A DNA stretch of 33,870 bases from Candidatus Avelusimicrobium bubulum (GTDB lineage: Bacteria > Elusimicrobiota > Elusimicrobia > Elusimicrobiales > Elusimicrobiaceae), in assembly GCA_902798835.1 (NCBI GenBank), contig CADBYN010000010.1, positions 11,745 to 45,614 on the forward strand. The letters run 5' to 3'. The notes under the pieces were generated by a model. It worked only from the letters and a program-made list of their open reading frames with translations, made no database searches and had not been told where the DNA came from. Both the position numbers and the translations under genes were made by a program. This document shows positions 3,712-22,378 of this stretch, one piece after another (position 1 is the stretch's first letter; every line of letters begins with the position of its first letter).

Positions 3712-6435
3712 TTAAAAGTGATAGCGTAGGTTGATGTATCCGTTCCAACCTTCGCGTCCGCCATCTCTGCGATAGAGGGCAATTTCAAACGCGTAATCAT
3801 TGAAATGAGCGGTTGTTCCCAAACCATACTCTACGAATCTGGCCATGTTGAGCGTAGGAATCGCCACGCCTTCAACTCGGGAGTTCCCACCGTCTTTGTG
3901 ACTGAAGGAATAGCGCACATCTCCAAAGAGTTCCCAGCGTTGGCTTAAGCGATAATCCCCACGCAGGTTTGGCACAAATTCAAACACTTGCAAGTCATCA
4001 GATTTTACACGGATATGGGCAGGATTGGTGTAATCATCCCCGTGGACATACGTGTAGGAAGTGACAAAACTGGGCATCAGCATCAGCGAAGGGGAAACTT
4101 CTATTTGATAGCCGATATCTGCGGCAATACCGCCCCAAGGATTGTTCGTACGGTGTTTGCCATACATATCGTGCGTTTTCGGATGGATGTATCCGCCAGT
4201 CATATTAAGGGCTACAATAAAGTTTTCATATTTGGTGGCAATGTTGGCACCCAAATACTCTCCGGGTTGATCTACGCGGATATCATCATAGCGGATGTTT
4301 CCGTTCAGATAACCGGCATAAACGTTGAGTTTGGAGGCGTCAGATTCAAAGAAATTGATGTCTTGGCTTAATCCTAAAAAGAACATGGCCATTCTGGTTT
4401 TGACGTCAGAAAAATGTCTGTAATCCGTTCTATCATTGTAGCCAGATGCTTTGAGCCAGACATTTCTTCCTTCTCCAAAATCTCCGGCTGCTTTGCCCTG
4501 TTGTTTGAAGTCATTATGTTCAAATAAAGAGAAATCGCGAAACACTAAACTATTGATATAATCCTGGACGTTTGAAACGGTGTTTACTGCAATGGTCGGC
4601 TCAAAGACGGCCGGATTATAATTCCCCGGGTCGTCGGGGTCCGGATTATCGTTAAAGCGGGTAAATGTTAAGGAGCCATCCCCATTATTGGCTACAGTAT
4701 ATTTGTAGACGGGAGAGACGGCCTGCAAATTATCTTTCACCTCTACGTAGTCGGCCAAATTGCTGTCTGTAAATTGAACCACGGTACTATCTCCCGTCGT
4801 ATCGGATAATACATTGACACCGGATAAAACGATTTTCTCAGTGCCTGTCACGGTGTCAACATGGATGGTGTCCATCGTAGAGGTAGCTAAATCTGCATCA
4901 GCTTGGATGTTGAGATTAGAAGAAAGATCTAATCCTTTCAAATTAACAGAGCCGATGACGTTATTGATAGTGTAAAGGGTGGCCTCTGCCATTACATGTA
5001 AGTTGTTGCCATCAATAAAACCGTCCGGGTTATCTACACCGGCATTGATGGTCGGATTTTGCCCGATAGCCAGTACGCCGTTGTACAAGTTGATATCAAA
5101 ATTATAGGTATCATCTCCCACTCGGTTATTGAATTGAATTTGGCTGCTTGCATCTGAGACCATTTCGGTCGTGATGCCTGTATCGGGGGAATAAGTCAAA
5201 CCTGGTTTGTTGATATCAATGGATGCTACGGTACCATCCGTGTAGGAAGCAATGCTACCGTTAAAAATAATTTTTTTACCGCTAGCCGCATTTAAGAATA
5301 AAGTAGCATCATTTCCGCCCGCGTCAAAATAAATATCACTACCCGCATTATAACTGGCTGTTTCGTTAGTGGCTGTGTTTCCGTCAAAAACAACATCTTT
5401 ATTGACGGCAAAAATGTTCAAATCAATATTTCCACTGTAAATGCCGGCCCCTTCATTAGCGGTATTGTTTGTGAAAGAAGAATCCACCACGGAGAGGGGA
5501 ATACCGTCGCGAAACTTGACGGCATAAATGGCTCCGCCATATGCGGCCTGATTGCCTCTAAACGAAGTGTTTATGATGTTCATCCCGTCATTTAGACCGT
5601 CCAAAGACAAAGCACCCCCAAGTCCGGTAGCCGTATTGTTAACAAATTCGGAATTGATGAGATAATTAACATAGTGGGCGCTAACGGCTGCCATACCATA
5701 CCAAATAGCGCCGCCATCATATCCAATTGCTTGGTTATTGGCAAATACGGAATTGGAAATATAGGTTTGTACGCTGGTATCCAAGGCGCCGCCTTCCCCA
5801 GCGGTATTATTGACAAAAAGGGAAGAATCTATGGTAAGTGGTTGTGAGTTAGTGAGTGTCTGTATCACTCCGCCGCCATACCAGTTTGAGGCTGCATGGT
5901 TATCATAAAAAGTGGAATTGGTAATAGTTAGCAAAGCATTTGAAGCAAAAAATACCCCGGCATCTTCGTCAGACACATTGTTGGAAAAAACGGAGTTGTC
6001 TATATTTACAGTGCCCAGAAGTTTATTTTGAGCGGGTGCCTGGCCCCATTCTGTTTTGTGAAATCCGTTAAAGGAATTTGTAATTTTTTTATACACGGTA
6101 TCACCGGCGGCATTTTGATAGGAAAAGGTATTATCCGTGCTGGATCCGTCCTGTATGGCTCCTATGTTTTTGAGTGTGACCGTGGAACTGTTTGAACCGA
6201 TATTTAGGTAGGTTCCCTGTACGCCCGTTAAGGAGTGATGGGCTCCGTCTACCACAGTTCCATCTGGCAACGTAACAGAGGGGGTGGCGGACTCAACCAC
6301 AATGTCTTGCGCAAAGGTCAAATCACCACCGGCAGCCAAATCCGAGAAGGAATTGACGTCCGCTGCAAAAGCGGATACATTCATAATTAGCAAAGCAGAG
6401 GAGAGTAAAAAAGTAAGTAATATTGTTTTCTTCAT
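3712..6435 (-). CDS. Polymorphic-membrane-protein type autotransporter (type Va)
   Basis: The protein has about 907 residues. The signal peptide begins MKKTILLTFLLSSALL and ends AFA-AD. The passenger carries Pmp-type repeats as in chlamydial proteins: repeated GGAL/GGAI and FxxN pairs such as SLFVNNTAGEGGAL, EFVNNTATGLGGAL and FRGNQAAYGGAI, forming a right-handed beta-helix. A Pro/Asp linker near residue 600 leads to a C-terminal autotransporter barrel of about 280 residues, ending in YINLRYHF with the terminal Phe used for outer-membrane insertion. I start at 6435, not the upstream ATG at 6471, because GGAGGT (6445-6450) is spaced correctly. The likely role is a surface adhesin. It lies between 81-bp direct repeats, so it may be mobile or deletable cargo. 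Confidence 0.92.
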   Translation of the reverse strand: MKKTILLTFLLSSALLIMNVSAFAADVNSFSDLAAGGDLTFAQDIVVESATPSVTLPDGTVVDGAHHSLTGVQGTYLNIGSNSSTVTLKNIGAIQDGSSTDNTFSYQNAAGDTVYKKITNSFNGFHKTEWGQAPAQNKLLGTVNIDNSVFSNNVSDEDAGVFFASNALLTITNSTFYDNHAASNWYGGGVIQTLTNSQPLTIDSSLFVNNTAGEGGALDTSVQTYISNSVFANNQAIGYDGGAIWYGMAAVSAHYVNYLINSEFVNNTATGLGGALSLDGLNDGMNIINTSFRGNQAAYGGAIYAVKFRDGIPLSVVDSSFTNNTANEGAGIYSGNIDLNIFAVNKDVVFDGNTATNETASYNAGSDIYFDAGGNDATLFLNAASGKKIIFNGSIASYTDGTVASIDINKPGLTYSPDTGITTEMVSDASSQIQFNNRVGDDTYNFDINLYNGVLAIGQNPTINAGVDNPDGFIDGNNLHVMAEATLYTINNVIGSVNLKGLDLSSNLNIQADADLATSTMDTIHVDTVTGTEKIVLSGVNVLSDTTGDSTVVQFTDSNLADYVEVKDNLQAVSPVYKYTVANNGDGSLTFTRFNDNPDPDDPGNYNPAVFEPTIAVNTVSNVQDYINSLVFRDFSLFEHNDFKQQGKAAGDFGEGRNVWLKASGYNDRTDYRHFSDVKTRMAMFFLGLSQDINFFESDASKLNVYAGYLNGNIRYDDIRVDQPGEYLGANIATKYENFIVALNMTGGYIHPKTHDMYGKHRTNNPWGGIAADIGYQIEVSPSLMLMPSFVTSYTYVHGDDYTNPAHIRVKSDDLQVFEFVPNLRGDYRLSQRWELFGDVRYSFSHKDGGNSRVEGVAIPTLNMARFVEYGLGTTAHFNDYAFEIALYRRDGGREGWNGYINLRYHF

Positions 6436-6559
6436 AAAATACAATACCTCCAAAAATTTACAGAGGGACATGGATTGTGTGAATTGTTATACAAGGTTGC
6501 ACAGTATTTTGATGCCGGACCTTGAATGCTGAAACATATTCATATCCCGTCTTTACATT

Positions 6560-6680: not shown

Positions 6681-6762
6681 GCTGTAGCTACGACGGTTGC
6701 AGTCCGTAATCCTTCCGATAATTTTCATACAAAAACTACTGAAAATGCTTAAAATTTAAGGG
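6681..6762. repeat. Diverged third copy (C) of the 81-bp repeat
   Basis: The segment shares the order of elements with copies A and B: gctgtagctacgacgg in place of gctcgataccacgacg, then agtcc, then catacaaaaactactgaaaa, then cttaaaatttaagg. Together with copy B it fills most of the gap between the autotransporter and Fic genes; no gene is visible there. Confidence 0.65.
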
Positions 6763-6803
6763 TTTTTATTATTTGGCCATTATAATTTGCGGCCCAACGT
6801 CTC

Positions 6804-6884
6804 CTCGATACCACGACGAGTCGGTCCTTATTCAATCCGATATTTCTTATACAAAAACTACTGAAAACGCTTAAATTTTAAGGA
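6804..6884. repeat. 81-bp direct repeat, copy B
   Basis: It is 77/81 identical to copy A at 2632-2712 and in the same orientation. It ends 21 bases before the stop codon of the Fic gene, at the 3' end of the recombinase operon. Confidence 0.9.
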
Positions 6885-6905
6885 ATTTTTATATTTTCAA
6901 AAGAC

Positions 6906-7497: not shown

Positions 7498-8607
7498 CTA
7501 TTTCCCCATCAAATCCCCAAAATCTAGACCAACTTGCTTGCATGCTTTGTTTGGCTCGCAAACCGTCTTTTCTTCTACTCTCGCTAACGTCATCCCGCGT
7601 TTGGGTAGATTCATGACCGCTTTGTGTAGAGTGCGCGGGGCTAAATGGGCATAAATCTCCGTCATTTGGATGCTACTATGTCCCAATAATTTAGACACTG
7701 TATAGAGTTCCACCCCATTTTGCACCAATAGGCTTGCGAATGTATGGCGCAATTTATGCAAGAAACTATCCACTCCTGCCGCTTTGGCTACCTCTTGATA
7801 AAAGGTTGTTAAATAATCGGGGTTACAGCGGTTCCCTTTCATGGGCTGGCATACAGTGACCACGTATTCGTGTTTAGCGCGTTTATGGGCCTTTTCTAGG
7901 GCATTTCTAAGGTCTTGTGTCATGGGTACAAAGCGGTGGTTTTCTGTCTTATTCGGAGCAATGTACAGTTGGTTATTGTCAAAATCAACATCTTCCCACT
8001 TTAAATTAGCCATTTCTCCTCGGCGAAGTCCGGCATCCGCTCCCAGTAATACCACAATCTTCCACGCTTCTGAGGGACAAGCTGCTAAGAGTTTGTCTAT
8101 TTCTTCCGGGGTGTGGAACACAACTCTACCCCGGGCTGTCTTAATCTTTGTGACAGTAGTCCAATCTCGCTTGGGCACATATTGCCATTTCTCACCCCTA
8201 TGCATAGCGGTTTTAATACATATCACTAAACTGTTGATATGCCTGGCACTGATGTTTTTCTTAATAAGATGCTCTTTATAGGTTTGTAGTAACTCGGGAG
8301 TAATATCCTGTAAAAAACGAGGCTTTTTCATTTCTTCTAAATACCGGATAGCCAATTTCATACGGTTACACGTATTACGGGCCTTATCAATAGACATGTG
8401 ATAGAGTAATTTGGCCTTAAATGCATCCCAAGTAATATGTACAGGCATCCTCTCTTTAACAGCATTCCTACGGCGAATCAGTTCCTGATATTTTAGCAGG
8501 GCTACTTGTTTATTTTCAGTTTGGAGCGAGAGACGTCTTCTAACCCCATTGAAATCGTAAAAATCTGCGTAATAATACGGTCCTTTTTTGATTTTGTGTA
8601 CACTCAT
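7498..8607 (-). CDS. Tyrosine recombinase / phage-type integrase, catalytically complete
   Basis: The 369-residue protein has an N-terminal arm-binding region ([20 protein letters not shown]), a SAM-like core-binding domain, and a C-terminal catalytic domain. All active-site positions are visible: Arg195 in GLRRGE, Lys in NKTENHR, His284 and Arg287 in HKLRHTFA, His310 in LGHSS, and Tyr319 in EIYAHL. The start at 8607 is set by AGGAG five bases upstream; the frame is open 29 codons further but through the preceding gene. It shares many blocks with the second recombinase at 12105. It lies between a small conserved protein (12 bp) and Fic (37 bp), all on the minus strand. It probably integrates the surrounding element; the site is not proven. 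Confidence 0.94.
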
Positions 8608-8618
8608 ATGCGCTCCTG

Positions 8619-8951
8619 TTACTGTAAAGGCACTTCCTCGCCTTTGATTACTTCCGCGTGGTCCGATAGATTGTATCCTTCGACTTTCCAACAACGGATA
8701 GTTTTGCGGTTACAGTCGATCTCGTACCAGTAGTCCAAGTCCGTATGTACTTGGAAGGCGATTTCGTATCCGTCGTCTTTGCGCTTGTTTTTAAGAAGCT
8801 CATTGACTAAGAGATTTCCATTCCACGTATTAAACTTTTTCCGTCTTTGGATCAGATCCTTTCCGACCCCTTTTGGGTAGCCGTCCCAGTGATGGTAAAG
8901 CAGGACGCTCTGTTTTAGGTAAGTTACTTTGATTTGGCTTCTAGTGCTCAT
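8619..8951 (-). CDS. Small conserved protein of the MSTRS...HWDGYP type, function unknown
   Basis: The 110-residue protein starts MSTRSQIKV and contains LLYHHWDGYPKGVG, a signature I associate with small unannotated proteins of phages and integrated elements. No catalytic motif or signal peptide is evident. The middle is basic and the C-terminus acidic, with WKVEGYNL near the end. The start is supported by GAGG about eight bases before the ATG. It is the first gene of the recombinase-Fic operon, and a strong hairpin lies just upstream of its ribosome binding site. An excisionase-like or accessory role is possible but unsupported. Confidence 0.75.
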   Translation of the reverse strand: MSTRSQIKVTYLKQSVLLYHHWDGYPKGVGKDLIQRRKKFNTWNGNLLVNELLKNKRKDDGYEIAFQVHTDLDYWYEIDCNRKTIRCWKVEGYNLSDHAEVIKGEEVPLQ

Positions 8952-9382: not shown

Positions 9383-10981
9383 ATGTTTACTGAGATAAAA
9401 TTAAATAATTTTCGGATTTTAAAAGACAAAAGTATAAAATTGGGAAAATATATTACAATGCTAGCAGGTTGGAATGCAACCGGTAAATCAACCGTTTTAG
9501 CATTATTGGCAAATTCAACGGAAATGAAACCCAGTATTGGTAAAGCTTATAATGGAAAATCTTTACGGGCCGAATTTGGTGAGATACTAAAGGGCAGTAA
9601 AGATTTTGATGAATCTTTGACCGATCGTCTAGAAATTACTCTAGAATGTCAAGATGGCAAACATATCACTAAAACCTTCAGAACTGGTTGGCAGAAAGAG
9701 AATGGCAAAGATCGTTTTAGGGTAATACCTAAAGAATTAGCCAAAAATGGAAGTGTAAAAAATGAGGCCAAATTTGATATTCCCGTCGTTTATTTGGGTC
9801 TTTCTCGCTTGTTCCCTATAGGAGAAACAGAGGATGAGCAATTAAAGAACAATTCTCAAACTTTTAAATCCGAGGAAGACAAGCAATGGTTTGTAGATAC
9901 TTATAAAAATACCTTGTCTTTAGATGATAAAATAACCGACATCACTAGTATCAATTTTCAATCTATTAGTAAAAAAACATCTGGAATTAATACTACATAC
10001 TATGATTGGCAAACAAATTCTGCAGGGCAAGATAATTTAAGCCAAATTTTATTTGCAATTTTATCTTTTAAAAGTCTCAAACAAAATTGTTCTTCTTACA
10101 AAGGAGGATTACTATTAATAGATGAAATAGAGGATTCCTTGCATCCTAAAGCTCAACAAAAACTTATAGATTTATTGATAAAAGAGGCTCGGGTAAGTAA
10201 TTTTCAAGTTGTTTTTACAACGCATAGTTTAACTATCATAGAACATTTTTCACGCAAAAAACAAAGTGAAGATTCTACAATAACATATCACTATTTTACA
10301 AAAGCCAACCAGGAATTAGAAATAAAAGAAAATCCTAAATTCGAAGAGATGAAAGACGATTTACTAGTCTCTCTTTATCAAGATAATCCAATTAAAAAAA
10401 TAATTGTTTATACGGAAGATGAGGAAGCACGTTGGTTTCTTAAAAAAATATTACGATATAAAATTCCTTCTAAATATCTTGAAATTTTGCCCGTGCAAAT
10501 ATCTTGCTCTTCCCTTATTGATTTAATGAATTGCGAACCTGCATTTGCCCATCATATTGTTGTTTTTGATGGAGATTTGTCATTCAGAGAGCATAAACGA
10601 ATTAAAAAAAATAGATCCAATTATCTTACATTGCCCTCTAATCTTGATAAAAAAGGGACTAAAATATTAGAATCTCCTGAAAAATGTTTAGAGAATTTTA
10701 TTTTTTCTGAGAAGGCTAAAACATATCTACAAGAAGAACATAATAAAAATCCTAGAGTTAAAATAGAGTTTTTTCGAGAGCATTTATTAAACTCATATCC
10801 TGAAACAAAAGAAAGAGAAAAAGGAAAACATTGGTTTAAAGATCACAAAAAACTGTTCGAAAAAAGTAAAATTATGGATTATTGGAAAAGAGAATATCCT
10901 AATCAGGTTGAAACTTTTATCAATGATTTTAAGTTGCGATTTAATAAAATTGCCGATAAATTAAACATAGAAAAGATATAA
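9383..10981 (+). CDS. OLD-like ATPase with C-terminal TOPRIM-like domain, probable defence nuclease
   Basis: The 532-residue protein starts with an ABC/SMC-type ATPase: LNNFRIL, Walker A GWNATGKST (29-37), a signature region around SAGQDNLSQILF, Walker B LLLIDEIEDSLHP (Asp247, Glu248), and an H-loop VVFTTHS. A C-terminal part has TOPRIM-like marks: Glu345 in IIVYTEDEEARWFL and Asp396-x-Asp398 in VVFDGDLS. This matches OLD-family nucleases and related defence ATPases; the AAA plus DUF4435 proteins of PARIS are an alternative relative. Several such proteins cut nucleic acid after sensing phage. It is 13 bp upstream of an adenine methylase gene, suggesting a two-gene unit. Base composition is more AT-rich than the hsd genes, consistent with separate acquisition. 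Confidence 0.85.
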   Translation: MFTEIKLNNFRILKDKSIKLGKYITMLAGWNATGKSTVLALLANSTEMKPSIGKAYNGKSLRAEFGEILKGSKDFDESLTDRLEITLECQDGKHITKTFRTGWQKENGKDRFRVIPKELAKNGSVKNEAKFDIPVVYLGLSRLFPIGETEDEQLKNNSQTFKSEEDKQWFVDTYKNTLSLDDKITDITSINFQSISKKTSGINTTYYDWQTNSAGQDNLSQILFAILSFKSLKQNCSSYKGGLLLIDEIEDSLHPKAQQKLIDLLIKEARVSNFQVVFTTHSLTIIEHFSRKKQSEDSTITYHYFTKANQELEIKENPKFEEMKDDLLVSLYQDNPIKKIIVYTEDEEARWFLKKILRYKIPSKYLEILPVQISCSSLIDLMNCEPAFAHHIVVFDGDLSFREHKRIKKNRSNYLTLPSNLDKKGTKILESPEKCLENFIFSEKAKTYLQEEHNKNPRVKIEFFREHLLNSYPETKEREKGKHWFKDHKKLFEKSKIMDYWKREYPNQVETFINDFKLRFNKIADKLNIEKI

Positions 10982-10994
10982 AATATAAATTGAT

Positions 10995-11858
10995 ATGGAA
11001 AAAATATATTCTCCTCTAAGATATCCTGGAGGCAAGGTTAAATTGGTTCCTTTCTTTAAGAAACTTCTTGAAGAAAATCATTTAATTGGAACTACCTATG
11101 TGGAACCATTTGCCGGGGGAGCAAATGTTGCGCTTTCGTTGCTTATTGATGGCTATGTATCGAAAATTATCATTAATGATATCGATAAATCCATCTATTC
11201 GTTTTGGCATTCCATATTGCATAATACTGATGCTTTTATCAAGAAGATCCAACATTCTCGTATATCTATAGCAGAATGGAAACGACAGAAATCAATTCTA
11301 GAAAGCCCCGAGAAATATTCTGAATTAGATTTAGGATTTGCTGCTTTTTTCCTCAATCGCACCAATTTTAGTGGAGTGCTTCAAGCTGGACCCATTGGAG
11401 GATTACAACAAAAAGGCAATTATAAGATAGATGCTCGATTTAACAAAGAACTCCTAATTAAAAAAATACGATGTATAGCTTCTCATAAGAATAATATACA
11501 AGTGACTTGTAAAGACGCCTTGGACGTAATAAATTCTATCCGCAAAATACAGAAATGTTTGGTATATTTTGATCCCCCTTACTATCTGCAAGGGAAAAGA
11601 TTATACACAAATTTTTACCAACATGCTGATCACGCGAAATTGGCTGCTTCGATACAAAGACTTACAATTCCACTAGTTATCACTTATGATAATGTGGAAC
11701 AAATTAAAGCTTTATATAACAACTTAGAGACTATGGAATTTATCATCCATTATTCAGCTAAAAAACATACCATAGCTAGTGAAGTAATGTTTTTAAATAA
11801 TATTCCTTGTCAGTCGAGATATTTCTTTACAGAATTAGTTGTTCCTTGTCATACTTGA
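10995..11858 (+). CDS. D12-class (Dam-type) DNA N6-adenine methyltransferase
   Basis: The 287-residue protein has the motif order of Dam-like alpha-class methylases: motif X SPLRYPGGK (6-14), motif I YVEPFAGGANVAL (about 35-47) for S-adenosylmethionine binding, and catalytic motif IV DPPY (193-196) in VYFDPPYYLQG. FFLNRTNFSGV lies between, as in this family. Length is normal for the family and no key residue is missing. It would methylate adenine in a short site; the site cannot be read from sequence. There is no clear Shine-Dalgarno, and the ATG follows the ATPase stop by 13 bp, so translation may be coupled. The partner makes it a candidate protective methylase rather than a housekeeping one. 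Confidence 0.92.
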   Translation: MEKIYSPLRYPGGKVKLVPFFKKLLEENHLIGTTYVEPFAGGANVALSLLIDGYVSKIIINDIDKSIYSFWHSILHNTDAFIKKIQHSRISIAEWKRQKSILESPEKYSELDLGFAAFFLNRTNFSGVLQAGPIGGLQQKGNYKIDARFNKELLIKKIRCIASHKNNIQVTCKDALDVINSIRKIQKCLVYFDPPYYLQGKRLYTNFYQHADHAKLAASIQRLTIPLVITYDNVEQIKALYNNLETMEFIIHYSAKKHTIASEVMFLNNIPCQSRYFFTELVVPCHT

Positions 11859-12104: not shown

Positions 12105-13109
12105 CTAGTTCCAAGTAGGTATCCCATTAATAATAGCATGTACATCCACATTTGGCATAAAAGGTCCATAAGTTTCTTGTGCTATCAATGGACTAATACC
12201 TAATAATTTTGCAAGTGCATATAGATTTATACCCTTTTTAGCCAGTTGGTAGGCATAGGTGTGTCTCAATTTCTGCATGGTACTGTGAAGCCCTGCTTCT
12301 TTAGCAATCTTTCCGTAGTTAATGGTCAAGAAGTCCTTATTCGGGTTGTCACGCCCCTCACTAATTACGAAATCACTAGCAGCTTCCTTCTGTACCTTGG
12401 CAAGATGACTCTTTAGCAAGTCAGTCATGGGAATCGTGCGGATATGCTCATCTTTCGGCGAATCCACATAAAGCATGCCGTCTTTGGTATCCACATCACT
12501 CCACCGCAAGTTGTTGATTTCTTCGCGACGTAACCCTGCCTCTGCCCCAAGCAACACAAGCGTGCGCCAATCATCAGTAGGGCAAGCGTTTAATAACTTA
12601 GTTAATTCTTCCTCGCTATGGACTTCTACGTCCTTTTTGGGCGCTTTTAGCTTGGATATATTGCACCAATTCTGCCACTCTACTATTTTCCATTCTTCGC
12701 CAAGGCGCATCATAGTTTTTAAGCATTGGAGTAAGCGGTTGATGTTGTGCTCTCTTAACCCTTGATTCAACATGTGCTCCTTTACTTGTTGAAGAAGTTT
12801 GGGAGTAACTTCACATACTACTCGCGGATAATACACTTCTTCCAAATACCGGATAGCGATTTCGGTGCGCTTAACCGTATTAGCAGAGCGTTCTTTTGCC
12901 AGGTGTTCAAGCACTTTGTCTTTGAACTGTTCCCAAGGCATGGAGTTCTCTCTGCGGTTTTTTTCTGCGTCACGGGCCTGGATGATTTTCTCATATTTGG
13001 CCTGAGCCACTTGGGGATCCTGGGTTTGTAAGGATACCCGTCTGCGTATACCGCGAAGATCACGGTAATCTGCATAATATACATTTCCGAATAGTTTCTT
13101 TACTGCCAT
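12105..13109 (-). CDS. Second tyrosine recombinase, missing two catalytic histidine positions
   Basis: The 334-residue protein is a full-length homologue of the recombinase at 7498, with the same N-terminal YYADYRDLRGIRRRVSLQT block, core-binding domain and catalytic fold. Arg194 (GLRREE), a Lys in SPKDEHIR, Arg282 (QKLRHTY) and Tyr314 (ETYGPF) are kept. The His of the HxxR motif is Gln279, and the second His/Trp position is Ile305 in LGISPL, where the paralogue has LGHSS. AGGAG seven bases upstream fixes the start. It may be inactive, have altered activity, or serve as a DNA-binding regulator. It is divergent from the Imm-WYL-cyclase operon across a 58-bp inverted repeat. Confidence 0.9.
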   Translation of the reverse strand: MAVKKLFGNVYYADYRDLRGIRRRVSLQTQDPQVAQAKYEKIIQARDAEKNRRENSMPWEQFKDKVLEHLAKERSANTVKRTEIAIRYLEEVYYPRVVCEVTPKLLQQVKEHMLNQGLREHNINRLLQCLKTMMRLGEEWKIVEWQNWCNISKLKAPKKDVEVHSEEELTKLLNACPTDDWRTLVLLGAEAGLRREEINNLRWSDVDTKDGMLYVDSPKDEHIRTIPMTDLLKSHLAKVQKEAASDFVISEGRDNPNKDFLTINYGKIAKEAGLHSTMQKLRHTYAYQLAKKGINLYALAKLLGISPLIAQETYGPFMPNVDVHAIINGIPTWN

Positions 13110-13487: not shown

Positions 13488-14423
13488 ATGCTAAACGATA
13501 CTGTTAATAAAATCAGTCGGTTAATATATATTCTTAATGAACTCGATAAAGGAGCAATCTTTTTGCCACGCATTGCTAACGATTTAGGAGTTACTCTACG
13601 TACTATTCAGCGGGATTTGCACATTTTAGAAGATGCAAGATTCCCATTGACTAACATTCGGAAGGGGACATATTGCTTTGTAGAAGGTTTTAGCCTAGGG
13701 CGTGCTAGTGTAACAGCAAGGGAGGCCGCTATGCTTGCGTTAACAGCTGATATCGCTTATACGTTGGGTGGACCTTTTGAGCATACATACAAGTTACTCC
13801 ATGACAAGATTATTGGGCAACAAGTACAAAATCCGTTCTTCGTCAAAGTAACCCAAGGACAGGCTTTTAAGGACCAAAATTTAGTTAAAATCCTAGAAAA
13901 GGCCATAAACAATCGGAACCATGTTGTAATAGAGTATGAAAATTCAAGATTGTCCGGCAGAACAATTTCTCCTCTAAAAATAGCATGGTTTGACGGCTTT
14001 TGGTATTTACTAGCCAATGGGAAAGATGAAACTATCCTAAAATTACGTTTGGATAAGATCCAAGCGGTTAAACCATTAGATACAACTTTCAATATGTCCC
14101 TAAAACTTGAGAAGATTTTAGACGACAGTGCATCGATTTGGTTCGAGGAAAACCGTGAGATTAAAGTGCGTTTAACAATTTCTAGTGAAGTAGCTAAATA
14201 TTTCGAGAAACGCGTATATTTCCCAAAGCAAAAAATCGTTAAAACTACCAAGGACGGTAGTTTGGTAATCGAGTGTGAAGTGGGCCGCTACGAAGAGATT
14301 GTGCCTACTATTTTACAGTGGATTCCGCACATTATAGTGCAGGAGCCCAAGGAACTAATAGATTTGATAACTAAAAAAGTGAATCTGTTTAAAAAGGAAC
14401 AAAAACGCTATGGAAGTAATTAA
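13488..14423 (+). CDS. WYL-domain transcriptional regulator
   Basis: The 311-residue protein has an N-terminal HTH (residues about 10-55, with IANDLGVTLRTIQRDLHIL), a WYL domain around residues 140-205 with ISPLKIAWFDGFWYLLANG, and a C-terminal WCX-type extension ending near IVPTILQWIPHI. WYL domains bind nucleic acid or nucleotide ligands, and WYL repressors such as BrxR and CapW control phage-defence operons. The start is supported by AGGA six bases upstream. It sits between an Imm-type membrane protein and a cyclase-like protein, and downstream of a large inverted repeat that it probably binds. A ligand made by the neighbouring protein is an attractive but untested idea. Confidence 0.9.
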   Translation: MLNDTVNKISRLIYILNELDKGAIFLPRIANDLGVTLRTIQRDLHILEDARFPLTNIRKGTYCFVEGFSLGRASVTAREAAMLALTADIAYTLGGPFEHTYKLLHDKIIGQQVQNPFFVKVTQGQAFKDQNLVKILEKAINNRNHVVIEYENSRLSGRTISPLKIAWFDGFWYLLANGKDETILKLRLDKIQAVKPLDTTFNMSLKLEKILDDSASIWFEENREIKVRLTISSEVAKYFEKRVYFPKQKIVKTTKDGSLVIECEVGRYEEIVPTILQWIPHIIVQEPKELIDLITKKVNLFKKEQKRYGSN

Positions 14424-14440
14424 GAGCCAAAGGATATATT

Positions 14441-15163
14441 ATGACTTTACGAACTGGTGACGCACGGTTTCCAAGAACGAATTACAAGACATCAAGATAT
14501 TGTGTTGCCTATTTAGACTTTTTAGGTGGAACTGACATCATCCGACATGATGATCAAAATAAGCATTTAAACATAATCAACATGATATTTGAAGATGCTA
14601 AGAAAGAATCTCAAATATTTTTCCAAGGTGCTTTTGTAAAGATCTTTTCCGATAACATTTTATTAGCGTTACCAACGGATAATGACAATAGAGAACAAAA
14701 TATAAAAAGTATAGTCAATCTCGTCAGCAATTTTGTTCATCAAGCAGCAGATAATGGCTATTTAATACGAGGGGCACTGACTGAAGGTGATTTCTTCCAC
14801 AACGACATTATTGTTTATGGAAAAGCACTTGTAGAGGCCGTTGAAATGGAAGAAAAGTATGCCATATACCCTCGAGTTATTGTGAAAAAGGAAATAGCCA
14901 AACTCCTGCCCCAATACTTTTATCCTTGTGCTGATGGTTGGAATGGCATTAATCACACCATCTTTGACTTTGGATTTGATTCTACAAATTTTAAATACAC
15001 CCTCTTATCCCAATTGTCAGCTAAAAAGAATGATGTTAAAGTGCGGCAAAAGATAATGTGGGCAATAACTGAATTTAACATTACGAGTAATGTCAGGCGC
15101 CAAATGGGTGCTTTAAGTCATGAGATCATTACCCGTAAAGAAATAGAAGATGCTCTCAAATAA
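14441..15163 (+). CDS. Protein with class III nucleotide-cyclase-like domain, possible signalling enzyme
   Basis: The 240-residue protein lacks a signal or membrane helix. Its fold resembles a cyclase homology domain: YCVAYLDFLGG places Asp26 where the first metal-binding Asp of FxDxxG lies; KIFSDNILLALP puts Asp71 at the second metal site after a beta-hairpin; IRGALTEGDFF (110-119) resembles the RxGxxxG strand, and IVYGKALVEAVEMEE the G-x-A-x-x-A-x-x-L/M-E helix that follows. The usual base-selecting residues are not clear. Similar soluble proteins are usually left as hypothetical. It begins 17 bp after the WYL gene and is last in the operon; no cyclic-nucleotide-binding effector of the Pycsar type is encoded nearby. 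Fold is fairly likely, activity unknown. Confidence 0.6.
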   Translation: MTLRTGDARFPRTNYKTSRYCVAYLDFLGGTDIIRHDDQNKHLNIINMIFEDAKKESQIFFQGAFVKIFSDNILLALPTDNDNREQNIKSIVNLVSNFVHQAADNGYLIRGALTEGDFFHNDIIVYGKALVEAVEMEEKYAIYPRVIVKKEIAKLLPQYFYPCADGWNGINHTIFDFGFDSTNFKYTLLSQLSAKKNDVKVRQKIMWAITEFNITSNVRRQMGALSHEIITRKEIEDALK

Positions 15164-15250
15164 GGATTTTAGGGAAGATATTATCTCGTCTTGTATAGAA
15201 AATTGTTAGAATATGAGTTAGAAGGTTTTTACCTGTGAGGGAGATTTAGA

Positions 15251-18148
15251 ATGCCAAAAGCAATGTCAGAGTACGAAGTAGAGTCACTATACATCGATAG
15301 ACTCGACGAAATGGGATATGATTACATAGATCTCAAAAACTATGATGATGTATGTGCCAACTTCAGGAAGCAATTTTGTAAGTTAAATAGCCAAGAACTG
15401 ATAGCCGCCAAAGGCATTGCCGAATTATCTGATGCGGAATTCGATAGGGTAATGATTCGCCTTGAGAACCATACCATCTATGAATCCGCTAAAATCCTTC
15501 GGGAAAAATGGATTCTAGAATTGGATAATGGTAAAACAATTTATGTGGAATTCTTTACAGGTGACGAAACCCGTAATATCTACCAAGTAACACATCAGGT
15601 CACGATGGATCCCGCCCACAAAGATGATGTCCTGTATAAGAATAGATATGACGTCACTATCCTTATAAACGGATTGCCATTGGTGCAGACAGAACTTAAA
15701 CGCCCTGGCATCGAAATTAACGAAGCCGTAAACCAAATCAACCGATACCGCAGATTTTCTTTTAGAGGGATTTTTAGATACATTCAGTTTTTTATTATTT
15801 CCAACTCGACAATGACGAAGTACTGCGCCAATATCAACGAAAATGACGCTTTTGGCCATAAACAAGATATCCTTAAATCACTCACGTTCTTTTGGACGGA
15901 TGAAAACAATGTCCGAATTAACAAGCTAATGGATTTTACAAACGCATTTCTACCCAAATCTCACTTGACGGAAATGTTGAGTAAGTATTTCGTTATAAAA
16001 GATACAGAGCCCGTTTTGCTTATCATGCGTCCGTACCAAGTCTATGCGGTAAAGCGAGCATTTGACCGTATTATTATGGCAAATGTGAACGGGTTTGTAT
16101 TCCACACGACGGGTAGTGGAAAAACTCTTACTAGCTATAAACTCGCTTCTTTACTTCGGGATGACCGCAGAATTGATAAAGTATTCTTTCTGATAGATAG
16201 GAACGACTTGGATGACCAAACCGTAGACGAATACAACTCTTTCGAAGCAGGTTGTGTTGATCAGACCGATAATACATACAACCTCGTTAAGGGACTACAA
16301 GATTCTTCTAAAACCTTGATAGTTACCACCATTCAGAAAATGGCTACGGCTCTTCGCTCCGAAAAATATACCACCATTATGGATGCTTTTAAGTCAAATA
16401 AATGCGTATTTATTATTGACGAATGCCACCGTTCACAATTCGGTAAGATGCATGCCCAAATACGCCGACATTTCGAGAATTCCAACTATATCGGATTTAC
16501 AGGCACTCCTATCTTTGCAGAAAACAAAGGACCACAAGGACAGACGACAGCTGATATCTTCCGGTCGGGAACTCTTGATCCGTGTATCCACAAGTACATG
16601 ATTAAAGAGGCCATTGCGGATGGTAACGTGCTCCGTTTTTCTGTAGAATACATGAGGAGCTTATCAATTTCTAGCGTAAAGGACTCTAAAATAGACGCTA
16701 AATTGCTTGATGACGCCGAATATTGCCGGAGACACCACATAGACCTTGAAGAACTCTACCATTCTGATGCTCGTATAGCCGCCATTTCCGACGATATTCT
16801 TGGCCATTTAAGTCAACACACAAGGCTGGAAAACAATAACGTCTATACGGCTATTTTTGCCATAGATAAAATTCCTACACTTATTAAGTATTATAACTAC
16901 ATGAAGGCCCACAACCCGAAAGGATATAAGATTGCGGCCATCTTTACTTATCAAGCCAACCAAGACATGGAAGAAAGTCCCGATCAACATGCCGCAGAGC
17001 AACTAGAATCCTGCATGAAGGACTATAATGCTATGTTCGGGACGGACTATGACCTCAGCAAATTTGATGCCTATCGCAAAGATATTTCCAAAAGGATGAA
17101 ACAAAAAGACCTTCCACAGGTCGATTTGCTGTTGGTAGTTAACATGTTCCTTACGGGATTTGATAGTAAGCCAACTAATACGTTGTTCCTCGATAAAAAT
17201 CTTGTATGGCACTCATTAGTTCAGGCATATAGCCGCACTAATCGTGTCGATAAAGTCACAAAACAATTCGGACAGATTGTTACCTACCGTAATATCAAAA
17301 AGGCGCAGGACGAGGCCCTTAAACTCTATTCCGGAGACGGAGACCCGAACGCTTATCTGCTTAAGTCCTATGACTACTATGTCGCAGAATACTATAAGCA
17401 AGTGAAGACGCTCCGGTCTGTTGTAGCTTCCGCCAGTGATGCCGGGAATTTACAATCCGAAGATGACATTAGGGCATTTATTATCGCATTTAGAACCCTA
17501 GCAGGTATTTTGAGTACATTAAAGACTTTCTCTAAGTTTGACTGGGCTGATCTCGCTCCGGCTTTGGATGAAGACGAGTATGCGGATTACAAGTCGTGGT
17601 ATCTGTATTACTACGATAAACACAAAGGCAAAGGGAAAGAATCCATCCTGGGGAATGTCGATTTTAATATTGAACTTGTCCGCACGGATAAGATTAATGT
17701 GGTTTATATTCTTAACTTGTTAAAAGAAATCAATCGCAATAGTGTGGACGAAATGAAGAAGTCTATAGACCTGATACTCCGAGAGATTGAACGCTCTGAT
17801 AACGAAAAAATGCGCTACAAACGTGAAATTATGAAAGCATTCGTTACGGAACGTTTCTTTGACCTAGATCCCGAAGCAGACATTATTGAGGCTTATAGCG
17901 AATACGAAAAAGAAGTGTTGCAGACAGATATCGAAGAATTCTCAACAGAGAACAAGTTGGACGTAGAATTCGTATCTACCGTTTTGCATAAATATTTCGT
18001 GGACCCCAAATCCATTACTAAGGAATACTTGCGTGTCGAATTAAGCAAGCAAGGTGTTAAAGGAATACTTAGACTCACGACTTGTATAGACAAATTGCAG
18101 GAATTCATGGAAAACAGTTGCAACAAATTTACCGCTGAAGATGCATAA
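15251..18148 (+). CDS. hsdR: Type I restriction enzyme, R subunit
   Basis: The 965-residue protein has an N-terminal PD-(D/E)xK nuclease: Asp about 133 in NRYDVTIL and Glu147-x-Lys149 in QTELKRPG. The superfamily 2 motor follows: Walker A TTGSGKT near 288-293, DECH near 388-391 in FIIDECHRSQFG, motif III FTGTP near 416, and motif VI QAYSRTNRV. A C-terminal helical region binds the methylase core. It translocates DNA with ATP and cuts unmethylated DNA away from the recognition site. GAGGGAG precedes the ATG. It heads a compact operon, R-M-S, 87 bp after the cyclase-like gene with no terminator seen between, so read-through from that operon is possible. It looks intact. Confidence 0.97.
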   Translation: MPKAMSEYEVESLYIDRLDEMGYDYIDLKNYDDVCANFRKQFCKLNSQELIAAKGIAELSDAEFDRVMIRLENHTIYESAKILREKWILELDNGKTIYVEFFTGDETRNIYQVTHQVTMDPAHKDDVLYKNRYDVTILINGLPLVQTELKRPGIEINEAVNQINRYRRFSFRGIFRYIQFFIISNSTMTKYCANINENDAFGHKQDILKSLTFFWTDENNVRINKLMDFTNAFLPKSHLTEMLSKYFVIKDTEPVLLIMRPYQVYAVKRAFDRIIMANVNGFVFHTTGSGKTLTSYKLASLLRDDRRIDKVFFLIDRNDLDDQTVDEYNSFEAGCVDQTDNTYNLVKGLQDSSKTLIVTTIQKMATALRSEKYTTIMDAFKSNKCVFIIDECHRSQFGKMHAQIRRHFENSNYIGFTGTPIFAENKGPQGQTTADIFRSGTLDPCIHKYMIKEAIADGNVLRFSVEYMRSLSISSVKDSKIDAKLLDDAEYCRRHHIDLEELYHSDARIAAISDDILGHLSQHTRLENNNVYTAIFAIDKIPTLIKYYNYMKAHNPKGYKIAAIFTYQANQDMEESPDQHAAEQLESCMKDYNAMFGTDYDLSKFDAYRKDISKRMKQKDLPQVDLLLVVNMFLTGFDSKPTNTLFLDKNLVWHSLVQAYSRTNRVDKVTKQFGQIVTYRNIKKAQDEALKLYSGDGDPNAYLLKSYDYYVAEYYKQVKTLRSVVASASDAGNLQSEDDIRAFIIAFRTLAGILSTLKTFSKFDWADLAPALDEDEYADYKSWYLYYYDKHKGKGKESILGNVDFNIELVRTDKINVVYILNLLKEINRNSVDEMKKSIDLILREIERSDNEKMRYKREIMKAFVTERFFDLDPEADIIEAYSEYEKEVLQTDIEEFSTENKLDVEFVSTVLHKYFVDPKSITKEYLRVELSKQGVKGILRLTTCIDKLQEFMENSCNKFTAEDA

Positions 18149-18163
18149 AAAAGGAGATAAAAG

Positions 18164-19756
18164 ATGGCAAATACCGTACAGAAGCAGTCTCAGGAACTAG
18201 CAACCCAACTTTGGGCCATAGCCGATGACTTGCGTGGCAATATGGATGCCAGCAAATTCAAGAACTATATTCTCGGAGTTATTTTCTATAGGTACTTATC
18301 TGAAAAAACCGAGAATTACATGAACGATTTGTTAAAGGATGATGGTATTTCCTATCGGGACGCGCTGAAAAACAAAAAACTAGCATCTACTGTTATGGAT
18401 TGGTCTATCGAGCACTTGGGGTACGTCATAGAGCCCAAATACCTATGGGCATCGCTTATAGACGAAATTAAAGGGGCCGAGTTCTCCATTGAACATTTCG
18501 ACAAGGCCATTTCTGCTCTTGTGGCCTCTACCATTGGGCAAGAATCCGAAGTGGCGTTTGATAAACTTTTCGATGACATGAATTTACAAGACAAAGACCT
18601 CGGGAAAGAAGTGTCAGAACGGACAGACCTTATCTCAAAAGTCATGTTAAAAGTTAACGATATCTCGTTTAACGTGGACAATGCGGAGATGGATGTCCTG
18701 GGAACAGCATACATGATACTAATTTCTCTATTCGCTTCTGATGCTGGTAAAAAAGGTGGCGAATTCTTTACACCAACATGTGCCTCGAAACTTTTAGCTC
18801 GGCTTGCTACAGTAGGATTAAAGGAGGTGAAAAATGTGGCCGATAGCTGTGCAGGGTCCGGTTCCTTACTGCTTGAAGTACAAAACCACTTGTCTACCAA
18901 GAAAGTAGGACATTTTTACGCCACAGAGAAGAACGGTAGTAATTATAATTTACTTCGTATGAATCTCCTTATGCATGGTGTGCCTTATAAACAGTTTAGT
19001 TGTTTCAATTCCGATTCCATAAAAACCGATAACTATTATGAGAACGGAAAGCCTTTGGAGTTTGATATTCAAGTAGAAAACCCTCCTTATTCTCAGCCAT
19101 ATGACAAAACCCCAAAACTTTTAGAAGACCCTCGTTTTTCATCTTGTGGCGTTCTCACTCCTCAAGATAAAGCAGATTTAATGTTCGTGCAAAGCATGGT
19201 ATATCATATGGCCGATGATGGGAGGATTGCTGTCCTGCTTCCTAGTGGAACTCTCTTCCGTGGAAAACAAAAGAAGGATGGAAAAAATGAGGCGGAATAT
19301 GATATTCGCAGACATCTAATAGAACATTTAAATATTGTGGATGCAATAATTGGTCTTCCCGCAAAAATGTTTCACGGTGCAAAACTTCCTGTCATTGTAA
19401 TGATTTTAAAGAAAAAGCGTAATGGAAATTCAGACAATATTCTATTCATAGACGCAAGCAAATATTTCACTCCTGAAAAAAATGCAAATATCATTACAGA
19501 CGAGGATATTGATCGAATATATAACGCATATGTAAATAGAGTTGACATTGAGAAATTCTCTCATGTGGCGTCGCTAGATGAAATAAGAGAGAATGATTAT
19601 AATTGCAATGTTCCTCGCTATGTAGATAGTTTCGAAAAAGAGGAAATTATAGACATAAAAGCACAGAATACTGTGATAAAAAAATGTACCCAAAAATCAG
19701 ATGCTATCGATAAAAAATTAGAAAACTTTTTTAAAGAACTAGGGTTGGAGGCGTAG
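18164..19756 (+). CDS. hsdM: Type I restriction-modification methylase, M subunit
   Basis: The 530-residue protein carries an N-terminal HsdM helical domain (QELATQLWAIADDLRGNMD...YILGVIFYRYLSEK) and an N6-adenine methylase domain. The latter shows GGEFFTPTCASKLLA, motif I DSCAGSGSLLL (Asp226; the family more often has D-P-x-C-G-S-G), and catalytic NPPY at about 306-309. It uses S-adenosylmethionine to methylate adenines at the site chosen by HsdS and forms the M2S core. AAGGAGA before the ATG is a strong ribosome binding site, and the gap to hsdR is only 15 bp. Confidence 0.97.
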   Translation: MANTVQKQSQELATQLWAIADDLRGNMDASKFKNYILGVIFYRYLSEKTENYMNDLLKDDGISYRDALKNKKLASTVMDWSIEHLGYVIEPKYLWASLIDEIKGAEFSIEHFDKAISALVASTIGQESEVAFDKLFDDMNLQDKDLGKEVSERTDLISKVMLKVNDISFNVDNAEMDVLGTAYMILISLFASDAGKKGGEFFTPTCASKLLARLATVGLKEVKNVADSCAGSGSLLLEVQNHLSTKKVGHFYATEKNGSNYNLLRMNLLMHGVPYKQFSCFNSDSIKTDNYYENGKPLEFDIQVENPPYSQPYDKTPKLLEDPRFSSCGVLTPQDKADLMFVQSMVYHMADDGRIAVLLPSGTLFRGKQKKDGKNEAEYDIRRHLIEHLNIVDAIIGLPAKMFHGAKLPVIVMILKKKRNGNSDNILFIDASKYFTPEKNANIITDEDIDRIYNAYVNRVDIEKFSHVASLDEIRENDYNCNVPRYVDSFEKEEIIDIKAQNTVIKKCTQKSDAIDKKLENFFKELGLEA

Positions 19757-19762
19757 AAAAGA

Positions 19763-20977
19763 ATGCCTGTATTGAGATTTAAGGACGCAAACGGACATGC
19801 TTTTGAAGCCCCTGATGAGCTTACGATCCATGATCTGTTCGATAAAGTAAAAACAACAAATAAAGACGGTCAGAACAAGAACGTGATTACAAACTCTGCA
19901 GAACACGGACTTATTCCACAAAGGGATTTTTTTGACAAAGATATCGCCGTTGATGGAAACACAAGTAAATATACAATAATAACGGACGGAGATTTCGTCT
20001 ACAACCCAAGAAAATCGTCTACTGCTCCATATGGTCCGTTTAATTGTTATACGCGGAAAGAGCCAGGCATTGTATCGCCCTTGTATTTTTGTCTAACTCC
20101 AAAAAACAAAGAATTTACTCCGTATCTGTTATATTATTTTGCTAGTCCGGCATGGTATTCATATATTTACCATAATGGCAATCAGGGCGGTGCTAGGCAT
20201 GACCGTGTAGGCATGACGAATTCTCTATTACAAGGAATTCCTGTTACGCTTCCTTGCCTTGAAGAACAGAAAAAAATCACTACATTTCTTTCTTTGTATG
20301 ACGAATATGTAAAAACGCAAGAGAATAAAGTTGATGCGTTAGAAAAACGCCGTAAAGGGTTGCTCCAACAGATATTTTCAAAGGATATACGATTTAAAGA
20401 TGAAGAAGACAATGAATATGCAGACTGGCAAGAGATGTCTTTGGATTCCGTGTTGTTAGAATACAATGAAAAAAGTTCCAAAGATGGCATCTACGAACAC
20501 GTTTCTTTGACTAAAGAAGGTGTTATTCCTAAAACTGAGCGATACAATCGGGATCATTTAGTGACACACGAAGATAAAGAATATCGTGTAACCCATTTAG
20601 ACGATATTTGTTACAATCCAGCAAATCTTAAATTCGGTGTTATATGCAGGAACAAATATAAAGATGCTATCTTTTCGCCAATATATGTAACTTTTAAGGT
20701 AAAAAAAGGCTTTATTCCTGCTTTCGTTGAAAGGCTCCTTGTCCGTAATTCTTTTATTCAAGAAGCTTTACAATACCAGGAAGGGTCAATATATGAGAGA
20801 ATGGCCGTGAGTCCAGAGGATTTGCTTTCAATGCCTATTGATATGCCTTCATTGCCTGAACAAAAGAAAATTGCTCAATTTTTCGATTTGATAGACAAAC
20901 AGATTCAAGTTGAAAAAGACAAACTCGAAGCAATTAAGCTAGTAAAGAAGGGCCTACTGCAACAGATGTTTGTCTAA
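19763..20977 (+). CDS. hsdS: Type I specificity subunit with two target-recognition domains
   Basis: The 404-residue protein starts 6 bp after hsdM and is built from two similar halves. Each opens with an LRFKD/IRFKD segment, followed by a target-recognition domain. Each closes with a conserved helix, LEEQKKITTFLSLYDEYV...KRRKGLLQQIF near 165-212 and LPEQKKIAQFFDLIDKQI...VKKGLLQQMF at the end. The two domains read the two halves of a split site; the bases cannot be inferred here. GGAGG inside the end of hsdM serves as ribosome binding site. No partial second hsdS or inverted repeats for specificity shuffling are present in the window. Confidence 0.95.
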   Translation: MPVLRFKDANGHAFEAPDELTIHDLFDKVKTTNKDGQNKNVITNSAEHGLIPQRDFFDKDIAVDGNTSKYTIITDGDFVYNPRKSSTAPYGPFNCYTRKEPGIVSPLYFCLTPKNKEFTPYLLYYFASPAWYSYIYHNGNQGGARHDRVGMTNSLLQGIPVTLPCLEEQKKITTFLSLYDEYVKTQENKVDALEKRRKGLLQQIFSKDIRFKDEEDNEYADWQEMSLDSVLLEYNEKSSKDGIYEHVSLTKEGVIPKTERYNRDHLVTHEDKEYRVTHLDDICYNPANLKFGVICRNKYKDAIFSPIYVTFKVKKGFIPAFVERLLVRNSFIQEALQYQEGSIYERMAVSPEDLLSMPIDMPSLPEQKKIAQFFDLIDKQIQVEKDKLEAIKLVKKGLLQQMFV

Positions 20978-21025
20978 TTACAATTCTAGGAACCATCGAA
21001 GGATCTAGCTTTTCTTAAAAGTTAC

Positions 21026-21988
21026 ATGAATACGAAAACCGAATTATCACATCATAAAAATCTCATGAAACAATGGGATAAATATAAACGCATGCTGTCA
21101 CGGAAGTTAGGAGGAATACCGAGAGGATGGTTAATTTTGAGTGATTATTGCCTAGATGATCCCCATAAAAATGCTTGTGTGACGTTTACAATCTCTCCTA
21201 TGCAGAATCTATATGTCCTTGGAAAACAACTTCGAGAAGCGTTGCCAAGGGATTTCAAAGATATCGGCACTGTACCTGAAGAGACATTGCTCTTTTTAAG
21301 GGATTATAAATATTTCTTTACTATTTCTATCATTCTTACTGATATTAATAAATCGGAAATCGTTAAAGATCTGCAAAATATGGTGCAGTACATATGTGAT
21401 AACTACACCAAAATGCCTCCGGCAATGATTTATCGTATTAAAAAATTTCGTGAATACTTAAAACGAAAAAATAAAAATCATAATGTTCTCAAGAACCTTT
21501 CTCTAGTAGCTCTCATATTTTCTCAGATTGTCGAATTTTTGAGTATTAAGCACTCTGCCAAACAAATACAATGGATTTCTGACCGAGATGATGTATTAAA
21601 CATCGAAGGCGGTATCATTTTCGACATTATCAATATAATAACGACTCGATTAATCCGGGGACGTCGTCGATCGATTTCTCTGGGGGTAGGGCTTGAAGAC
21701 AAAAAAGCTGGAGAATATGGTTTTGATGTGTTTATTCGGTATCCAGACATTGTCGCGGGAGCAGTATCTTCTTTAGATTACGAAAAGCACCGGGTAACTA
21801 AGCCAAAGCATTTAGAATTACTTATAAATTCAGTTTTTAAGAATCCTAATATTTTAATGCTACAACTCAAAAACGAGCGTTTAAATTTGATCAGATATGT
21901 ACCAAACCCTAAATTTTCTTCCTCAGCCATTATACGGGTAGAAAAGGATAAGAATTTAATTCCACAAGCTCCTAGTAACCTTTGCTAG
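21026..21988 (+). CDS. Unrecognised 320-residue soluble protein downstream of hsdS
   Basis: I do not recognise the family. The protein has no signal peptide or clear membrane helix. The N-terminal third is basic (NLMKQWDKYKRMLSRKLGG). A middle helical region has KKFREYLKRKNKN. The most distinctive stretch is QIQWISDRDDVLNIEGGIIFD near 180-200, then RLIRGRRRSISLGVGLED and FDVFIRYPDIVAGAVSSLDYEK; the acidic residues after strand-like segments could form a metal site of an RNase H-like or nuclease fold, a guess only. It starts 48 bp after hsdS without a strong ribosome binding site, and may be co-transcribed with it. Its end is next to the right border repeat. Confidence 0.7.
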   Translation: MNTKTELSHHKNLMKQWDKYKRMLSRKLGGIPRGWLILSDYCLDDPHKNACVTFTISPMQNLYVLGKQLREALPRDFKDIGTVPEETLLFLRDYKYFFTISIILTDINKSEIVKDLQNMVQYICDNYTKMPPAMIYRIKKFREYLKRKNKNHNVLKNLSLVALIFSQIVEFLSIKHSAKQIQWISDRDDVLNIEGGIIFDIINIITTRLIRGRRRSISLGVGLEDKKAGEYGFDVFIRYPDIVAGAVSSLDYEKHRVTKPKHLELLINSVFKNPNILMLQLKNERLNLIRYVPNPKFSSSAIIRVEKDKNLIPQAPSNLC

Positions 21989-22315: not shown

Positions 22316-22378
22316 CAGGAATCGAACTTGTATCTTCAGCTCCGCAGGCTGACACTCTATCCATTGAGCTATGGGCGC
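22307..22378 (-). tRNA. tRNA-Arg, anticodon GCG
   Basis: The 72-base cloverleaf has a 7-bp acceptor stem GCGCCCA/TGGGCGC, D arm GCTC...GAGT, anticodon stem TCAGC/GCTGA with loop CTGCGGA (anticodon GCG, decoding CGC and CGU), and T arm ACAAG-TTCGATT-CCTGT. The discriminator is A and CCA is not encoded. The T stem has one A-C mismatch at the 52-62 pair. The acceptor and D arm resemble tRNA-Arg(CCG) of other bacteria. It has its own promoter and terminator. Its 3' end faces the accessory region, the usual orientation for island insertion. Confidence 0.9.

Follow-up and report, generated by a model that had tools for sequence, protein, structure and literature searches.

The analysed stretch of 33,870 bp (the window) from Candidatus Avelusimicrobium bubulum, the assembly of which comprises 1.35 Mb, carries two adjacent genes on the (+) strand, here termed A and B, which are predicted to encode an OLD-type ATPase/TOPRIM protein and an N6-adenine DNA methylase. 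As described in the first-pass annotation, both genes were found to be intact and separated by 13 bp when the ORFs of the window were checked (9383-10981 and 10995-11858). The following features were assigned:

7498..8694, - strand: tyrosine integrase on one flank (Pfam Phage_integrase, E 4e-31)
9383..10981, + strand: gene A (532 aa), ABC ATPase of the OLD type carrying a TOPRIM-like nuclease domain at its C-terminus (Pfam, PHROG, AF2 model, Foldseek)
9467..9493, + strand: Walker A motif GWNATGKST of A, residues 29-37 (G29, N31, K35 and S36 invariant in 32 homologues)
10019..10045, + strand: ABC signature-like motif SAGQDNLSQ of A, residues 213-221 (S213 and G215 invariant)
10112..10126, + strand: Walker B motif LLIDE of A, residues 244-248 (D247 and E248 invariant in 32 homologues)
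10415..10420, + strand: first acidic TOPRIM motif of A, E345-D346, right behind the beta strand 340-344 (32 homologues, model)
10568..10576, + strand: TOPRIM DxD motif of A, D396-x-D398, at the end of the strand 391-395 (32 homologues, model)
10982..10994, + strand: spacer of 13 bp between A and B (ORF coordinates)
10995..11858, + strand: gene B, D12/Dam-class N6-adenine DNA methylase of the PD-Lambda-5_B family, 287 aa (Pfam, PADLOC, PDB profile)
11571..11582, + strand: catalytic methylase motif DPPY, residues 193-196 of B (invariant in 11 homologues)
12105..13109, - strand: second tyrosine integrase on the opposite flank (Pfam Phage_integrase, E 1.7e-17)

The higher AT content that had been ascribed to the pair is reflected in a GC content of 0.28-0.34 compared to 0.40-0.45 on both sides and up to 0.51 further to the right, calculated in 1-kb windows. 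The two flanking integrases share an identity of 42%, and an integrase which is 35% identical to the one from 7498-8694 is also encoded next to A and B in a congeneric genome (L191). The A-B stretch looks like acquired cargo, and the integrase gene at 7498-8694 is likely to be the mobility gene of the island, outside the mechanism of A and B. Since no repeat of at least 14 bp of the tRNA-Arg gene (22306-22378) was detected elsewhere within the window, no integration site is defined.

Several repeats and a further defence locus were observed in the window. Direct repeats of approximately 105 bp (91% identity), accompanied by a third copy of 75 bp (82-83%), are located at 2620-2723, 6700-6774 and 6792-6896. 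They flank a gene encoding a protein of 919 aa with Chlamydia PMP-type repeats (3712-6471), end beside a gene encoding a Fic-domain protein and an integrase gene, and may represent att-like or recombination repeats. A dispersed intergenic repeat of approximately 85 bp (79% identity) occurs at 2287-2368 and 22107-22190, with one copy adjoining the tRNA-Arg gene. The region 13488-21988 harbours a complete type I restriction-modification (R-M) operon consisting of a WYL-domain regulator, HsdR, HsdM and HsdS (hsd part 15251-20977), together with genes for two unassigned proteins, one of them with a weak match to the PADLOC model PDC-M38B (14441-15163) and the other without any match (21026-21988). 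An assignment of B to this operon was rejected, as the operon possesses hsdR, hsdM and hsdS genes of its own.

The predicted protein A matches the Pfam families AAA_15 (E 1.8e-18) and AAA_21 (E 2.8e-16) and is covered from end to end by PHROG_3940, a phage protein family of unknown function (414 bits). In an alignment of 32 homologues the residues G29, N31, K35, S36, S213, G215, D247, E248 and H281 of the ATPase part were invariant, as were the TOPRIM-type residues E345, D346, D396 and D398, while K482 was nearly so. The AlphaFold model (mean pLDDT 83.6, pTM 0.62) shows the strand order of TOPRIM domains, with a strand followed by E345 and the DxD motif closing another strand. According to Foldseek its best PDB match is the OLD nuclease of Thermus (6P74, E 9e-15), followed by the OLD effector of Retron-Eco8 and GajA of Gabija; the TM-scores of these matches are low (about 0.3), probably because the orientation of the domains is uncertain. 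In a sequence profile search the ATPase part alone matched PDB entries and no match was obtained for the TOPRIM part, so that the TOPRIM assignment of A relies on the structural model and the conserved residues. Protein A thereby exhibits both hallmarks of the OLD family, an N-terminal ABC ATPase with Walker A, Walker B and signature motifs and a C-terminal TOPRIM fold with the catalytic glutamate and the DxD motif. The second acidic TOPRIM residue, which is located at E+4 in the OLD protein of Retron-Eco8 (E402; PMC12887533), is not conserved: among the 32 homologues the corresponding position 349 is occupied by alanine or glycine in most cases, with the invariant D346 at E+1 instead. Given this missing residue, a DNA nuclease activity of the A family is not assured.

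The predicted protein B matches the Pfam family MethyltransfD12 (E 2.3e-28), and its DPPY motif is invariant in 11 homologues. In the PDB the profile of B is closest to the adenine methylase 7m6b (E 5e-32) and to DpnII-type enzymes, with Dam methylases being matched as well. By far the best PADLOC match of B was PDLC04018, PD-Lambda-5_B (E 3.5e-116, 386 bits), with the MTase_II models matching as well (313 bits). A scan of genome contigs with B alone yielded one locus. The identities proposed earlier, an OLD-like ATPase/TOPRIM protein and a D12 methylase, are hence upheld by the Pfam matches, the invariant motifs and the Foldseek match to 6P74, and the residues of A singled out at that stage (E345 and D396) proved to be the right ones.

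To assess the conservation of the pair, viral contigs, keyed on A alone, and 295 genomes of the phylum of the window were scanned for A. The scan yielded 45 non-redundant lineages including the window, one of which stops at a contig edge, leaving 44 assessable lineages with the window among them. B was located near A in 39 of these 44, a fraction to be read in view of the A profile having been built from B-linked proteins, which biases the scan towards this branch of OLD proteins, albeit B was not needed for a match. B lies directly downstream on the same strand in 36 lineages, adjacent on the opposite strand in two and within 3 kb in one, and is missing in five. In 75 homologous pairs the spacer between A and B has a median length of 67 bp (range 13-342). 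Carriers of the pair include records of Acinetobacter, Psychrobacter, Fusobacterium, Staphylococcus hominis and Nicoliella as well as phages of Streptococcus, Citrobacter and Vibrio. The A-B pairing is hence widely conserved, being shared by numerous phages, plasmids and bacteria. The survey for a conserved pair suggested in the first-pass annotation has therefore turned out in favour of conservation, and with adjacency in 39 of 44 A lineages mere chance neighbourhood was rejected.

Judging by its sequence, B is a member of the same family as the methylase of PD-lambda-5, a defence system validated by experiment. This system was found by functional selection, its anti-phage activity has been shown for the system of E. 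coli only, and it was labelled RM+Abi by its authors (PMC9519451). The use of a delta-mrr host for PD-lambda-5 suggests that the methylase may mark host DNA in a way that is attacked by Mrr. The window pair was nevertheless rejected as PD-lambda-5 proper since A fails the PD-Lambda-5_A models: no such model occurred among the best 25 of the 103 PADLOC matches of A, nor among the top PADLOC families of its 32 homologues. True PD-Lambda-5_A proteins of relatives score up to 630 bits with the PADLOC PD-Lambda-5_A models and have no Pfam match. For the N-terminal domain of such a protein (e.g. L112, 3511-4965) the structural model suggests a possible resemblance to ParB/KorB/Noc and sulfiredoxin, the matches being weak (E about 1e-3).

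Among the 42 loci counted in a scan for B (more than 240 bits) the partner was an OLD protein in 16 cases and PD-Lambda-5_A in 24, while one locus possessed both and one, at a contig edge, none. Both effectors were detected near one methylase at L016 (2443-6461), L050 (3618-7479), L091 (4974-9547) and L119 (1738-5891). On the tree calculated from 92 B proteins, approximately 15 partner changes are needed to account for the distribution of the OLD label, and at least eight of these changes are forced by well-supported branches. Some B proteins are 70-84% identical to each other although the corresponding A proteins share only about 30%, and the reverse was not seen to a comparable degree. A reshuffling is visible in the window itself, as its A and B have different nearest relatives: B is sister to the B protein of genome G172 (support 100/99, 61% identity), whereas A groups with that of L023 and the A protein of G172 with that of G005. 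According to these sequence comparisons one adenine methylase family swaps between the OLD protein and the unrelated ParB/Srx-like partner. Two unrelated effectors, and divergent A proteins on similar B proteins, are more readily explained by a shared methylase gate than by two recognition enzymes which co-evolved independently.

Two further loci were noted in this context. In the Vibrio phage ValB1MD-2 (L016) PD-Lambda-5_A is split over two ORFs. The methylase gene of L002 (3893-7065), also of this family, directly precedes a gene for a HerA-like (DUF87) ATPase and has neither of the two effectors upstream of it, the ATPase possibly representing a further type of partner.

The five assessable lineages with A but without B are represented by L045, the group L076-L085, L188, L189 and L190; L187 is also devoid of any B. 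In L045, L076, L078-L082, L084 and L085 a longer A (about 615-670 aa) is encoded in a prophage right behind a gene for an XRE-type repressor, with no methylase. L188 carries A approximately 4.5 kb from an EcoRI-type methylase and L190 carries A alone. In L189 (4992-9311), from a congeneric genome, a relative of A with one in-frame TGA in the match sits in a type I restriction operon, between the hsdM and hsdS genes. The free-standing A genes (L045, L076-L085) indicate that A can be carried without B and thus weaken the strict version of a protein which is lethal without its methylase.

Genes for A interrupted beside an intact B were observed in L006, L009, L032/L109 and L141. Among the loci of the A-keyed scan no interrupted B beside an intact A was seen except at a contig edge. 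This one-sided damage is in line with B guarding against A, with the numbers being small, A being about 1.9 times as long as B and some of the interruptions possibly resulting from sequencing errors. In the unrelated L006 (Psychrobacter) and L009 (Fusobacterium) the split of A into two ORFs occurs at a near-identical spot of the TOPRIM part (model position approximately 363-375), and the methylase downstream is intact.

With respect to the function of the pair we favour the restriction of unmethylated DNA over a suicide guard similar to PARIS. In the preferred reading, the chances of which we consider to be evenly balanced, the pair is a methylation-guarded nuclease, with B marking adenines of self DNA and A attacking unmarked DNA or acting when the marking fails. 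Together A and B would make up an anti-phage module of two genes of the PD-lambda-5 type, with the OLD nuclease taking the place of PD-Lambda-5_A. B would methylate adenine at a specific site in the DNA of the host and of the resident element. A would bind ATP, dimerise via its ABC domains and be kept off methylated DNA, or stay inactive as long as methylation is maintained. The entry of unmethylated phage DNA or a loss of methylation would then license the TOPRIM domain of A to cut DNA. The conserved motifs, the OLD-like fold, the family membership of B, the co-occurrence and the repeated partner swapping are supported directly; from there we infer a protection of self DNA by B, DNA cutting by A and a gating of A by methylation.

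The label RM+Abi of PD-lambda-5 allows for this guarded nuclease as well as for a guarded suicide resembling the abortive infection by PARIS or PrrC. In the latter B would mainly be a bait or brake, and a phage protein such as a DNA-mimicking anti-restriction protein would block or displace B, whereupon A kills the cell. We regard this as the main rival of the favoured reading, yet as rather unlikely, and the same holds for its corollary that A would cut nucleic acid of the host, be it DNA or, like AriB, tRNA. Apart from the Abi component in the label of PD-lambda-5 (PMC9519451), such a scenario is suggested by PARIS, in which a TOPRIM nuclease is paired with an ABC ATPase of the OLD type and which is triggered by the anti-restriction protein Ocr and cleaves tRNA (PMC12839542), and by the OLD protein of Retron-Eco8, which acts in a complex degrading phage and host DNA once triggered (PMC12887533). 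Two unrelated effectors on one methylase family would also suit a bait. The occurrence of free-standing A genes argues against a constitutive lethality in the absence of B, though a guard need not be lethal.

The swapping of effectors would best be explained if B were the specificity subunit of an A-B complex similar to BREX or to type I or type III systems, with A, which would have no sequence recognition itself, being carried by B to unmethylated sites. As a sub-version, this reading overlaps with the favoured model, and by itself we deem it unlikely. B proteins that are 81-84% identical serve A proteins sharing only about 30% identity, or PD-Lambda-5_A, which is easiest to understand with the recognition residing in B, and the A relative between hsdM and hsdS (L189) points in the same direction. 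On the other hand, in classical type II systems the R genes evolve apart rapidly as well, yet do not ride on M.

Two independent pieces of cargo would be a still less probable explanation, in which A is a stand-alone OLD exclusion protein similar to class 1 and B an orphan prophage methylase shielding the element from host restriction, an equally improbable corollary being that both became neighbours through a shared accessory slot near integrase or repressor genes. It would agree with B having more than one type of partner, with some A proteins lacking B and with the integrase or repressor genes which adjoin some of the A-B pairs in phages. However, the adjacency in 39 of 44 lineages, 36 of them with B directly downstream on the same strand, exceeds what is expected from linkage by a shared slot. 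The identities of A and B are furthermore correlated (Mantel r 0.51, p 0.001), to which linkage alone contributes in part, and a partner of the A type or PD-Lambda-5_A was present at 41 of the 42 B loci above 240 bits, with the remaining one lying at a contig edge. Such a co-occurrence is difficult to reconcile with two independent genes.

We tentatively propose, as a possibility somewhat short of an even chance, that one prophage- and plasmid-borne family of adenine methylases acts as a hub guarding two or more mutually unrelated families of effectors, among them ParB/Srx-like PD-Lambda-5_A and the OLD ATPase/TOPRIM nuclease, which in some cases share a locus, and that the OLD version constitutes a new, methylation-gated class of OLD proteins in which recognition comes from the methylase or the methylation state and not from the nuclease. 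The restriction-like OLD-methylase system put forward in the first-pass annotation thus holds in part: the pairing is real, conserved and outside the OLD classes 1-4 (PMC10568477), but B already belongs to the PD-lambda-5 family and swaps its partners, which turns the new two-gene restriction system into a new effector variant of a known methylase-centred module. In a literature search we found no paper describing an OLD protein and a D12 methylase as a system, an earlier description being possible. As PADLOC has no model for the OLD version, such loci would not be reported by it as complete PD-lambda-5.

OLD nucleases are sorted by their partners, and a methylase conserved in this role would extend the classification by another class as well as provide OLD proteins with a directly testable rule for distinguishing self from non-self. 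PD-lambda-5 would then appear as one version of a system whose common methylase can be combined with two or more effectors, and a comparison of the OLD and PD-Lambda-5_A versions could reveal the contribution of the methylase.

In the current scheme (PMC10568477) OLD proteins fall into four classes according to whether they occur on their own, beside a UvrD-like helicase, beside a reverse transcriptase or, in the manner of PARIS, split; the scheme reviewed there contains no class with a methylase partner. Protein A resembles class 1 (P2 Old, TsOLD 6P74), which yielded its best Foldseek match, in combining an ABC ATPase with a C-terminal TOPRIM domain. Unlike class 1, which is defined as a single gene (PMC10568477), it has a conserved methylase partner (39 of 44 lineages) and lacks a conserved acidic TOPRIM residue at E+4. 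With Gabija (class 2, GajA/GajB) the pair shares an OLD-type nuclease in a two-gene defence module. The partner is, however, a methylase and not a UvrD-like helicase, none of which was found beside A, the neighbours being the methylase and integrases, and the GajA models of PADLOC reach about 56 bits at best. Retron-Eco8 and the type I-B retrons (class 3) provided the second-best Foldseek match, and the PADLOC model ATPase-Toprim_I-B aligns with residues 4-516 of A. In contrast to these retrons the partner of A is a methylase, and no reverse transcriptase was recognised among the annotated neighbouring ORFs. PARIS (AriA/AriB) likewise relies on an ABC ATPase of the OLD type together with a TOPRIM nuclease, but its domains usually reside in separate genes, it has no methylase and A scores only about 70 bits with the AriA models of PADLOC. 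Gabija, PARIS, Septu/PtuA, Menshen NsnB and HEC-04 were all rejected as assignments of A, with 55-78 bits mostly confined to the ABC core among the PADLOC matches listed, and so was MADS, the MAD3 model reaching 29 bits on A compared to a cut-off of 420.

BREX and BREX-related loci are also reported to employ OLD/TOPRIM modules as auxiliary effectors, and 'RM-like' conflict systems to contain OLD-ABC ATPases, with Krishnan et al. 2020 as the cited source (PMC12839542). In P. aeruginosa the unlinked OLD gene PA1939 and methylase gene PA2735 were tested and found to be independent (PMC6945700), which does not bear on the linked A-B family.

The pair resembles type II R-M systems with a Dam/DpnII-type methylase in that B matches the MTase_II models and solved methylases of the DpnII type, whereas the partner of B is an OLD ATPase and not a protein with the fold of a type II restriction enzyme. 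The closest resemblance in organisation is to PD-lambda-5, which also consists of two genes with a methylase of the same family, is borne by prophages, plasmids or islands and usually has the effector gene just upstream of the methylase gene; the window pair differs from it in having the OLD ATPase/TOPRIM protein in place of PD-Lambda-5_A.
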